This document shows, one piece after another, positions 14,311 through 19,824 of a stretch of 64,000 bases of DNA. The DNA is from Thiobacillus sp. 65-29 (GTDB lineage: Bacteria; Pseudomonadota; Gammaproteobacteria; Burkholderiales; Thiobacillaceae): assembly GCA_001899775.1 (NCBI GenBank), contig MKWN01000043.1:19171-83170 (forward strand), written 5' to 3'. A program made the translations under genes and the position numbers. The notes beneath the pieces were generated by a model that worked only from the letters and a program-made list of their open reading frames with translations, made no database searches and was not told the origin of the DNA. The first letter of the stretch is position 1. Each line of letters begins with the position of its first letter.

Positions 14311-15396
14311 ATGCTGCTGTGGCTGTTCCAGCATCTCGGCCAGGACGTTCGGGCCTTCAATGTTTTCAACTATCTCACCCTGCGCACGGTGCTGGCCGCA
14401 CTCACCGCGCTGACGATCTCGTTCATCGTCGGCCCCGCGGTGATCCGCAGGCTGACATTGCTGAAGATCGGCCAGTCGGTGCGCACCGATGGACCCCAGA
14501 CGCATCTGGTGAAGGCCGGTACACCCACCATGGGCGGCGCGCTGATCCTGGTCTCGGTCATCGTCACCACCCTGTTGTGGGCGGACCTGACGAACGCCTA
14601 CGTCTGGGTCGCCCTGTTCACGCTCAGCGGATTCGGCGTCATCGGCTGGGTCGACGACTGGCGCAAGGTGGTCGAGAAGAATTCACGCGGGCTGCCATCG
14701 CGCTGGAAATATTTCTGGCAGTCGGTAATCGGCCTGGCCGTGGCGGGCTATCTCTGGCACGCCGCGACGTTGCCGCAGCATACCGAACTCATCATTCCCT
14801 TCGCGAAACACGCCACCCTGACGCTGTCGGCGGCCGCCTTCATCGCGCTTGCCTACTTCGTCGTTGTCGGCGCGTCCAATGCGGTGAACCTCACCGACGG
14901 TCTCGACGGTCTCGCCATCCTGCCCACCGTGATGGTGGCGGCCGCGCTGGCGATCTTCGCCTACGTCGCAGGGCACGCGGTGTTCTCCAAATACCTCGGC
15001 GTGCCCTTCGTACCGGGTGCCGGCGAGCTCGCCATCTTCTGCGCGGCGATGGCGGGCGCCGGACTGGCCTTCCTGTGGTTCAACGCCTACCCGGCGGAAG
15101 TGTTCATGGGCGACGTCGGTGCGCTGGCGCTCGGCGCCGCGCTCGGCGTAGTCGCCGTCATCGTGCGCCAGGAAATCATCCTTTTCATCATGTGCGGCGT
15201 GTTCGTGGTGGAGACTCTGTCGGTGATGGTGCAGGTCGCCTCGTTCAAGCTCACCGGCAAACGTGTGTTCCGCATGGCGCCCATCCACCACCACTACGAA
15301 CTCAAGGGCTGGAAGGAGAATCAGGTCGTCGTGCGTTTCTGGATCATCAGCATGATGCTGGTGCTGATTGGCCTTTCGAGCCTGAAACTGAGATGA
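14311..15396 (+). CDS. mraY: phospho-MurNAc-pentapeptide translocase MraY
   Basis: 361 residues, about ten membrane helices. Signature motifs: KAGTPTMGG, the Mg-binding NLTDGLDGLA, NAYPAEVFMGDVGALALG and MAPIHHHYELKGW. It makes lipid I from UDP-MurNAc-pentapeptide and undecaprenyl phosphate. ATG is one base after the murF stop. Its last 67 bases are duplicated 158 bases downstream, just before murD. Confidence 0.96.
   Translation: MLLWLFQHLGQDVRAFNVFNYLTLRTVLAALTALTISFIVGPAVIRRLTLLKIGQSVRTDGPQTHLVKAGTPTMGGALILVSVIVTTLLWADLTNAYVWVALFTLSGFGVIGWVDDWRKVVEKNSRGLPSRWKYFWQSVIGLAVAGYLWHAATLPQHTELIIPFAKHATLTLSAAAFIALAYFVVVGASNAVNLTDGLDGLAILPTVMVAAALAIFAYVAGHAVFSKYLGVPFVPGAGELAIFCAAMAGAGLAFLWFNAYPAEVFMGDVGALALGAALGVVAVIVRQEIILFIMCGVFVVETLSVMVQVASFKLTGKRVFRMAPIHHHYELKGWKENQVVVRFWIISMMLVLIGLSSLKLR
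15330..15396 (+). repeat. direct repeat copy 1: 3' end of mraY
   Basis: 67 bases ending with the mraY stop recur at 15488-15554 with two differences (AGC/AGT for Ser, AGA/CGA for Arg), both synonymous in the mraY frame. Copy 2 ends at the murD start, so the murD junction CTGCGATGAAC looks like the original mraY/murD overlap. Confidence 0.9.
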
Positions 15397-15554
15397 GCGC
15401 CTCCAGAATGAAACGCACCACGGGAAGATTCGGGGGAGACTCACGTGCAGGCTCCGCCTGCACGTTATGGCGACACCAGAATCCTCCCGTGCGTTTCTGG
15501 ATCATCAGCATGATGCTGGTGCTGATTGGCCTTTCGAGTCTGAAACTGCGATGA
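15393..15554 (+). CDS. linker ORF between mraY and murD (53 aa), hypothetical
   Basis: The ATG (15393) overlaps the mraY stop as ATGA and the stop (15552-15554) overlaps the murD ATG as ATGA. Residues 1-32 come from inserted repeat DNA (MSASRMKRTTGRF start). Residues 33-53 repeat the MraY C-terminus, including the hydrophobic run WIISMMLVLIGL, so the product would have one short membrane segment. The insert contains a perfect 9-bp hairpin (CGTGCAGGC/GCCTGCACG) and an imperfect longer one (CACGGGAAGATTC against GAATCCTCCCGTG). I know no homologue. It may serve only to carry ribosomes from mraY to murD. Confidence 0.4.
   Translation: MSASRMKRTTGRFGGDSRAGSACTLWRHQNPPVRFWIISMMLVLIGLSSLKLR
15488..15554 (+). 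repeat. direct repeat copy 2: mraY end rebuilt before murD
   Basis: The second copy of the 67-base mraY end. It lies outside mraY but stays in the frame of the linker ORF, so it still encodes the MraY C-terminal peptide ending SSLKLR. Confidence 0.9.
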
Positions 15555-16957
15555 ACTACGACAGTCTTGGCCTCGCTGGAAAGAAAGTGCTGGTGCTCGG
15601 TCTGGGCGACACCGGGCTGTCGTGCGCGCGCTGGCTTGCGGCGCGCGGCGCCAAGGTGAGTGTGGCCGACACCCGCGACGCGCCGCCGCACGCGACGCGG
15701 CTGGCCGAGTTGTTGCCGGGCGTGCCACTGTTTACGGGTCCGTTCGACGCAGCGCGCCTGCTGGCGGCCGGACTCGTGGTGGTGAGTCCGGGCGTTCCAC
15801 TCGCCGACCCGGCGCTGGCACGCGCCGTTGCCGCGGGTGTCGAAACGGTGGGCGACGTCGAGTTGTTCGCACGCGCGTTGCAGGCACTGAATGCGGGACG
15901 CGAACAGCCGATGCGCGTGCTCGCCATCACCGGCAGCAACGGCAAGAGCACGGTCACCGCGATGTGCGGCGACATGTGTCGCATGGCCGGGCTGTCGGTT
16001 TGCGTCGCCGGCAACATCGGCCTGCCGGTGCTCGATGCGCTGTACGAAATCGAGCAGGGGCATGCGCCGGTGCCGCAGGTGTGGGTGCTTGAACTGTCCT
16101 CGTTCCAGCTGGAAACGACCATGAGCCTCGACGCCGCTGCCGCCACCGTGCTGAACCTGTCGGAAGACCACATGGACCGTTACCCGGACATGGAAAGCTA
16201 CGCCGCCGCCAAGGCGCGCATCTTCAGTGGGCACGGCGTGCAGGTACTCAACCGCGACGATCTCCGTACGCTGGCGATGGCGCGCCCGGGACGACGGGTG
16301 GTGAGTTTCGGTCTGGATCGGTGTCCGCAGGGCGAGAACTTCGGCCTGTGCGAGGACGAGCTGTGTCTCGGCGGCGACATGCTGATGCCGCTCTCCGCGC
16401 TGCCGGTGGCCGGCCTGCACAACGCCGCCAACGCCCTTGCGGCGCTGGCGCTGACGCGTGCGCTCGGCCTGCCGATGGAAGCCCTGCTGCGCGGACTGCT
16501 GCACTTCAAGGGGCTGCCGCACCGGGTGGAGAAAGTCGCCGAAATCGGTGGCGTGACCTGGTACGACGATTCGAAGGGCACCAATGTCGGGGCGACCGAA
16601 GCCGCGCTGTACGGCATGGGCCGGCGTCGTGCGGTGGTGATCCTCGGCGGCGACGGCAAGGGACAGGATTTCTCGCCCCTCAAGGCAGCGGTCGAGGCCA
16701 ACGCCCGCGCGGTGGTGCTGATCGGGCGCGACGCGCCGGCGATCGCCGCCGCCCTCGACGGCTGCGGCGTCGCCACGCATCGCGCCGCGAGCATGGAGGA
16801 CGCCGTCGCGCTGGCGCAGCAACTGGCGCAGCCGGGCGACGCCGTGCTGCTCTCGCCTGCCTGTGCGAGTTTCGACATGTTCCGCAACTACGTCCACCGC
16901 GCCGAAGTGTTCGTCGCCGCAGTGAAGCGACTTGCCGCCGGGACGGGAGCGATCTGA
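15551..16957 (+). CDS. murD: UDP-MurNAc-L-Ala:D-Glu ligase MurD
   Basis: 468 residues starting MNYDSLGLAGKKVLVLGLGDTG (Rossmann-type N-domain), with AITGSNGKSTVTAM P-loop, GNIGLPVLDAL, ELSSFQLE, NLSEDHMDRY and the C-terminal YDDSKGTNVGAT and LLSPACASFDMF motifs. It adds D-glutamate to UDP-MurNAc-L-Ala. An upstream extension of the frame runs into the repeat and is rejected because ATG 15551 matches the family start. Confidence 0.95.
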   Translation: MNYDSLGLAGKKVLVLGLGDTGLSCARWLAARGAKVSVADTRDAPPHATRLAELLPGVPLFTGPFDAARLLAAGLVVVSPGVPLADPALARAVAAGVETVGDVELFARALQALNAGREQPMRVLAITGSNGKSTVTAMCGDMCRMAGLSVCVAGNIGLPVLDALYEIEQGHAPVPQVWVLELSSFQLETTMSLDAAAATVLNLSEDHMDRYPDMESYAAAKARIFSGHGVQVLNRDDLRTLAMARPGRRVVSFGLDRCPQGENFGLCEDELCLGGDMLMPLSALPVAGLHNAANALAALALTRALGLPMEALLRGLLHFKGLPHRVEKVAEIGGVTWYDDSKGTNVGATEAALYGMGRRRAVVILGGDGKGQDFSPLKAAVEANARAVVLIGRDAPAIAAALDGCGVATHRAASMEDAVALAQQLAQPGDAVLLSPACASFDMFRNYVHRAEVFVAAVKRLAAGTGAI

Positions 16958-16958
16958 C

Positions 16959-19553: not shown

Positions 19554-19680
19554 CGACGACAGTTCTTGGTCTATCGGATGTTCTCCGACGCATGGGCGCG
19601 GCGCCAGAACGCTGCCTTCCAACCACCACCCCTGACCCCTGGTTCCTGAATCCTGACCCCTCGCGCCGGAGGCGCGAATC
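19509..19680 (+). repeat. inverted repeat arms flanking the murG/murC insert
   Basis: The GGGGTC...GGGAGTCAGGGGTCAGGG block at the end of murG (about 19511-19540) is complementary to the CCCCTGACCCCTGGTTCCTGAATCCTGACCCC-like block near 19627-19662. The second arm is followed by a small hairpin, CGCGCC GGA GGCGCG. Repeats of this kind are common between genes in high-GC proteobacteria. Confidence 0.7.
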
Positions 19681-19684
19681 ATGA
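19550..19684 (+). CDS. linker ORF 1 between murG and murC (44 aa), hypothetical
   Basis: ATG 19550 overlaps the murG stop (ATGA) and TGA 19682-19684 overlaps the ATG of the next linker (ATGA at 19681-19684). The product begins MTTTVLGLSDVLRRMG and ends in a Pro/Arg-rich tail from the repeat arm. No family recognised. Confidence 0.38.
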   Translation: MTTTVLGLSDVLRRMGAAPERCLPTTTPDPWFLNPDPSRRRRES

Positions 19685-19824
19685 AGCACGCGGTCAAGCA
19701 CATCCACTTTGTTGGCATGGTCGACGCGAGCAGGGAGCAGGGTTCCCGCTTGTGGGATGCGACCGGCCGCGAGCGGCGCCGGATGCCGACTCTCGGGCGC
19801 CGGGGAAGGAGCGACAGCCGATGA
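19681..19824 (+). CDS. linker ORF 2 between murG and murC (47 aa), duplicate of the murC start
   Basis: The first 12 residues (MKHAVKHIHFVG) are identical to the MurC N-terminus encoded from 19821. The two DNA copies differ at four positions within these codons, all third-position and synonymous. After residue 12 the frame leaves MurC and continues as an Arg-rich tail. The stop TGA 19822-19824 overlaps the murC ATG (ATGA). It may be a coupled leader peptide or a decayed duplication. Confidence 0.42.
   Translation: MKHAVKHIHFVGMVDASREQGSRLWDATGRERRRMPTLGRRGRSDSR

Follow-up and report, generated by a model that had tools for sequence, protein, structure and literature searches.

The stop-start overlaps that join neighbouring genes may be kept for handing the ribosome from one gene to the next or may simply reflect compact packing, and the two are difficult to tell apart in natural settings. 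The division and cell wall (dcw) cluster of Thiobacillus sp. 65-29 raises this question in the 64,000-nt stretch of contig MKWN01000043.1 that was analysed (the window), where inserts are confined, from mraZ to ftsA, to the three junctions mraY/murD, ftsW/murG and murG/murC. These inserts are filled by five linker open reading frames (ORFs), L1 to L5, of 53, 39, 58, 44 and 47 codons, each open to its last codon. Five boundaries are ATGA overlaps (mraY/L1, L1/murD, murG/L4, L4/L5 and L5/murC) and three are TGATG overlaps (ftsW/L2, L2/L3 and L3/murG). A re-reading of the window bore out this arrangement, which a first-pass annotation had described, as well as the freedom of the other mraZ-ftsA junctions from inserts. 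In the dcw clusters of 53 genomes of the genus, inserts of at least 25 nt number 74 (ftsA/ftsZ excluded), and 73 of them are strictly chained, by linker ORFs or by in-frame N-terminal extensions, with stop and start overlapping by 4 or 1 nt, as they do at all eight boundaries of the window. From these comparisons we propose that selection in the Thiobacillus dcw cluster probably removes inserts that break gene-to-gene ribosome hand-over, that is, termination-reinitiation coupling. The stronger form of the proposal, towards which we lean by a smaller degree, is that the cluster would be an obligatory ribosome relay, in which DNA that settles between the overlapping genes has either to turn into a translated bridge or to be taken up by a neighbouring protein, and in which the repeat-derived ORFs would not serve as proteins and would only carry the ribosome on. 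Repeated arrivals or losses of unrelated DNA at the same junctions, with the geometry nearly always kept, would amount to a natural test of the strength of hand-over selection.

Composition of the window inserts

The three inserts consist of palindromic or heptad DNA together with a copy of a neighbouring gene end, and are GC-rich (58-67%). Their features are as follows.

15330..15396, + strand: mraY end, original copy of a direct repeat
15393..15554, + strand: L1 linker ORF, 53 codons, ATGA with the mraY stop and the murD start; 154-nt insert class
15410..15431 (left arm) and 15479-15497 (right arm), + strand: imperfect inverted repeat in L1, pairing judged by eye
15445-15463: small palindrome in L1, pairing judged by eye
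15488..15554, + strand: copied mraY end (67 nt) at the 3' end of L1, 97% identity
18116..18235, + strand: L2 linker ORF, 39 codons, TGATG with ftsW and L3
18140..18179, + strand: CCCTCTCCC-type palindromic repeat core in L2
18211..18275, + strand: copy of the ftsW end and the repeat after it (first copy 18092-18156), 98% identity
18235..18411, + strand: L3 linker ORF, 58 codons, TGATG with L2 and murG
18334..18413, + strand: copy of the repeat and the ftsW end, ahead of murG (first copy 18158-18237), 96% identity
19507..19541, + strand: heptad repeat encoding the MurG C-terminal tail; inverted copy in L4 at 19630-19664, 80%
19550..19684, + strand: L4 linker ORF, 44 codons, ATGA with murG and L5; contains CCCCTGA heptads
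19681..19726, + strand: copied murC start (46 nt; original 19821-19866), 85% identity
19681..19824, + strand: L5 linker ORF, 47 codons, ATGA with L4 and murC

The copies of gene ends named in the first-pass annotation were thus recovered, at the identities listed. Its description of all inserts as repeat DNA holds for the L2/L3 core, a common repeat of the genome with 74 matches at E<=1 (a count that takes in the core itself and both strands of palindromes), and for the L4 heptads, which have nine further short matches there. It does not hold for the unique part of L1, which is not a dispersed repeat and is found in 16 of 56 genomes, once in each, a second, opposite-strand match in G024 lying inside the first. 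No second copy of L5 was found in its own genome; its 45-nt core occurs elsewhere in some relatives as pairs 111 nt apart (G055:C11 149964-150121, G033:C80 3300-3457 and G042:C1 65567-65724), which suggests a larger repeated unit. The MurG C-terminus in the window (murG 18411-19553, 3' end) and in G047, G029 and G016 carries a GSG-rich tail derived from GGGGTCA heptads. Bare relatives have a MurG that ends in EALAK, and the heptad tail is missing in G046, G012 and G033.

Chaining across the genus

The genome set comprised 56 genomes, including that of the window (G000; 2.9 Mb, 61 contigs). Fifty-four have murG, and the cluster was scored in 53 (the window, 51 stretches and one further locus, many of them partial). 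At 14 junctions, a chain was accepted as strict where each stop overlapped a start by 4 or 1 nt, repeatedly, until the frame of the next gene was reached. The junctions are either bare overlaps (-4 or -1 nt) or hold inserts of many unrelated kinds, among them CACAGAG palindromes, CCCTCTCCC palindromes, heptads and copied gene ends. When inserts longer than 12 nt are counted, chaining is found at mraY/murD in 16/16, ftsW/murG in 13/13, murG/murC in 23/24, rsmH/ftsL, ftsI/murE and murE/murF in 4/4 each, and ddl/ftsQ in 3/3. All 33 of the murB/ddl inserts are chained as in-frame ddl extensions, 26 of them being merely a 14-nt longer ddl start. The one exception is murG/murC of G016, where TAA is followed by a linker that begins 5 nt later and ends with ATGA at murC. 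Two loci outside these counts, L042 and the more distant L066, also have chained mraY/murD inserts.

The chain is kept in several ways. Some chained inserts lack a copied gene end and use TTG or GTG overlaps or in-frame fusions. Repeats are also absorbed as N-terminal extensions of MurG or Ddl, or C-terminally by MurD (G028, G054 and G013; spacing 2 nt) and, as heptads, by MurG. The 154-nt class of L1 is chained in 14/14 genomes, and all 14 scored members have the same length despite a mean divergence of 16% in the unique part; pairwise comparison of the ftsA/ftsZ gaps in 13 of these genomes gives unequal lengths in 76 of 78 pairs. On a 51-row tree the three window junctions require at least 12, at least 12 and at least 17 changes between bare and inserted states, with one row (G005) mis-scored at the first junction. 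The nearest relative, G046, has no insert at any of them. Cultured strains among the carriers include Thiobacillus denitrificans RG (L035), with inserts at mraY/murD and ftsW/murG, and T. thioparus DSM 505 (L110), with one at murG/murC.

Some values need to be read with care. G005, scored as bare at mraY/murD, in fact carries an insert of the L1 type, but both its mraY end and the copy of that end contain runs of N, and it cannot be scored; the L1-type matches in G024 and G027 are on contigs outside the junction scoring; and G008 has N near ftsI/murE (there counted as a chained insert) and near murG/murC. Unresolved junctions were left out (murE/murF 7, murF/mraY 2, mraY/murD 2, and one each at murD/ftsW, ftsW/murG and ftsA/ftsZ). 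The ddl/ftsQ spacing of -371 in G016 is an impossible value, and the 166-nt mraY/murD value of L067 is an artefact of a stop inside its mraY. This stop within the mraY frame of G016 (L067), a metagenome-assembled genome (MAG), either reflects faulty assembly or genuinely interrupts the gene.

The frequency of such chains was compared with a null model in which inserts were shuffled with their flanks and last 4 nt kept and their length jittered, and which was scored by insert class. Fully chained classes number 22 of 23 against 9.3 expected (tail 9e-9), and 16 of 17 against 7.3 when murB/ddl and ftsI/murE are left out (tail 6e-6); the first-pass annotation had pointed to shuffled inserts as the check on chance, and the chains exceed that expectation. 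For the window itself the figure is 3/3 against 0.36, and uses the three end-permitting gaps of the dcw bin (8 gaps, 3 chained; the bin may hold minus-strand window pairs). The ftsA/ftsZ gap of the same cluster, which resembles the inserts in length (88-140 nt) and was used as a control, is chained in 2 of 40 cases. Gap length modulo 3 was dropped as a sole test because in-frame extensions and double linkers occupy the other phases. Selection for continuous translation in this operon, one of the two explanations first offered, thus appears to be supported by the shuffle test, the ftsA/ftsZ control, the constant length of the L1 class and the submission of unrelated inserts to one rule.

Shine-Dalgarno pairing, scored with an assumed 16S tail, is not above background at the murD start (-2.3 versus -2.5), whether bare or with insert, so murD is predicted to depend on hand-over. 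The ftsZ start has a strong signal (-9.1), and it is this gene that is preceded by the unchained gap. In E. coli and Haloferax reporters a distance of about 20 nt nearly abolishes coupling (PMC10666635).

We propose the following course of events. DNA would enter or leave dcw junctions often, sometimes together with a copy of a gene end by which overlap and start region are re-established, and only inserts of the right phase and without an in-frame stop would persist. The survivors would then exist as a separate linker ORF or be joined to a neighbour, at the N-terminus of the gene that follows or the C-terminus of the one before. The linker peptides themselves are predicted by-products, whose translation would serve to bring the ribosome to the next start.

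Evidence against hand-over and alternative explanations

Several observations weigh against selection for hand-over. Within the cluster, most coupled starts other than murD and ftsA have Shine-Dalgarno-like pairing, so that coupling is not necessarily their sole route to initiation. Once the ends permit it, chance chaining amounts to 17-66% per class; chance chains are therefore not rare and the case depends on the independence of the classes. Some linkers rely on TTG or GTG starts. Tightly spaced junctions such as mraZ/rsmH (37), ftsL/ftsI (40) and murD/ftsW (51) have no insert longer than 12 nt, which the proposal does not explain. Beyond the cluster, 1.56 Mb of the window's own genome was scanned (1443 genes called with our own gene finder, which supplied the gene calls outside dcw, 1109 co-directional pairs and gaps of 40-400 nt). 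Gaps with at least five repeat matches show a weak excess of chains (9/67 versus 4.5 expected), and those with one to four matches (0/32 versus 0.4) or no repeat (15/285 versus 9.6) are chained as listed. The search of the same genome for further repeat inserts that the first-pass annotation had in view thus yielded a slight excess but no genome-wide rule, and such a rule is rejected. Three other operons, chosen because the window's genome is chained there, were compared for inserts of at least 25 nt in up to 20 genomes each, that genome being excluded from the counts. Chained inserts number 7/15 at leuD/leuB (5.7 expected, hence no excess; 20 stretches, of which one lacked an upstream match and 19 were scored) and 1/7 at trpA/accD (1.9 expected). 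At ribH/nusB 4/6 are strictly chained (1.7 expected), and in the two unchained inserts an ORF that terminates at the nusB start begins 5 or ~20 nt past the ribH stop. The leuD/leuB result led us to reject a rule that covers all overlapping pairs. Together with the genome-wide counts, these operons indicate that the constraint is limited to certain operons. With the geometry kept nearly every time in dcw and leuD/leuB at chance, the strength of coupling becomes measurable junction by junction. The leuD/leuB stretches (L290-L309) have inserts of 54-110 nt in 15/19 relatives and a bare ATGA overlap in four. At least two repeat types occur there, CGCGAAGG palindromes and GTGAGGC heptads, and several inserts have GGAG near the leuB start.

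Among the alternatives, selection for shielding nascent mRNA fares best and is still unlikely. Rho exerts polarity on mRNA left free of ribosomes, and a translated linker would cover mRNA that is otherwise exposed; with the insert translated, no bare C-rich stretch would be left for Rho, and the overlaps would be incidental. The GC-rich make-up of inserts that would go untranslated in an essential operon unless covered by a linker fits this account. However, inserts of 25-69 nt, which are likely too short for Rho loading, are chained in 15/15 cases, the ftsA/ftsZ gap is unchained in 38/40, and an overlap of 4 or 1 nt at each boundary is not needed for shielding. Protection from Rho, which the first-pass annotation had named, is accordingly weakened as a sole reason.

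It is very improbable that the chain comes free with the origin of the inserts, with a copied gene end carrying the overlap, frames open by chance and no selection on translation. Copied gene ends do restore ATGA or TGATG, and the chance rates per class given above are in its favour. Nevertheless, inserts that lack a copied end are chained too, and leuD/leuB inserts in the same genomes are at chance, which indicates that insert make-up alone is insufficient. Insertion mechanics alone were rejected on the class-level shuffle test.

If the linkers were real small proteins maintained for a role of their own, for instance through the membrane segment from the copied MraY end, their amino-acid sequence should bear the mark of selection. 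In the unique part of the 154-nt class the linker frame has a synonymous share of 0.33 and the other two frames have 0.25 and 0.22, a slight lean that extends to third positions. In the unique part of the 136-nt class, in which codon-level constraint was looked for, there is no frame preference (0.31 against 0.33 and 0.29). In the copied parts the linker frame has a strong synonymous bias (258 to 121 and 81 to 33 codon differences). The first-pass annotation had counted seven differences between copies and gene ends, all synonymous; this stands within shared codons (two in mraY, one in ftsW and four in murC), but slightly longer frames add non-synonymous changes at the margins of two copies, one (M/T) for ftsW and three for murC. 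On average an mraY copy differs at 3.6 of 67 nt from the mraY end in the same genome and at 6.75 from the copies of other genomes; true mraY ends differ by 4.8 nt between genomes. Several genomes have species-specific variants common to gene and copy, and in G007, G009, G028 and G050 a foreign mraY end is closer to the copy than the own one. We infer that copied ends in part evolve with the true gene ends by partial gene conversion or renewal. As copies are nearer to their own genome's gene end than to other copies, conversion accounts for the synonymous bias, and partial conversion is likely to be enough to explain the seven differences in the window. Recombination between such direct repeats would also recreate the exact bare overlap. 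Functional peptides, the other explanation first offered, were rejected on these codon-constraint results for the unique parts and appear the most improbable of the alternatives, since unrelated inserts occupy the same junction, many relatives have none, and no Pfam family was found for any of the five linkers (Rfam was also without result). Linker frames are kept and unique amino acids hardly so, which makes continuous translation rather than a small protein the likely target of selection.

Known systems and related arrangements

Contrary to the statement in the first-pass annotation that no such system had been described, mycobacterial interspersed repetitive units (MIRUs) are a precedent. 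PMC12548453 describes them as short repeats that lie where genes begin within operons and that carry an ORF coupled at -4 nt to the adjacent gene; through this coupling the insert is believed to leave expression largely undisturbed. Thiobacillus linkers likewise mostly overlap their neighbour by 4 nt, with -1 nt overlaps in others. However, MIRUs as described there are one mobile family, whereas in Thiobacillus unrelated classes of insert follow one rule at shared junctions; the chain is also kept by -1 nt overlaps and by in-frame extensions, and the L1 class is single-copy. One mobile family scattered at start codons was thus not what we found, as the weak genome-wide excess given above also indicates. 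The overlap geometry, -4 and -1 nt, is that of termination-reinitiation pairs (PMC6728339 and PMC10666635); the pairs reported there join two genes, whereas in Thiobacillus one or two non-conserved ORFs are predicted relays between genes. Short upstream ORFs, as treated in PMC12548453, bring the ribosome to a downstream gene, and their translation, not their product, is thought to matter; those ORFs precede one gene, whereas Thiobacillus linkers connect a pair of genes that in relatives overlap with nothing in between.

Palindromic repeats also lie in frame inside many proteins of Rickettsia, as Rickettsia palindromic elements. The repeats in frame in the MurG, Ddl and MurD extensions resemble them, but in Thiobacillus the extensions lie at the ends of genes, and separate linker ORFs stand in their place in other cases. 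In the open-access literature no paper was found that deals with inserts of this sort, either in the dcw cluster or in Thiobacillus, the subscription literature being mostly outside the search. What is new is that the repeats are unrelated, that inserts come or go often within a single essential operon and that the chain is kept in several ways; in its working the system is MIRU-like. Many tiny ORFs annotated in operons may be bridges rather than proteins.

In other genera (37 loci, counts without a null model), gaps longer than 24 nt are chained at murG/murC in 8/18, ftsW/murG 3/18, mraY/murD 3/6, murD/ftsW 5/8, murF/mraY 0/8, ftsQ/ftsA 0/4, murC/murB 1/3, murB/ddl 1/3 and ddl/ftsQ 1/1. Chains of murG/murC linkers occur in other Betaproteobacteria, in L103 (a Giesbergeria MAG, up to 90 codons), L078, L079, L083, L086, L093, L095 and L102. 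Elsewhere in the genome of Thiobacillus sp. 65-29, two linker ORFs, of 73 and 60 codons, span a gap of 393 nt at C48:4728-5121 (minus-strand coordinates) that contains nearly identical direct repeats.

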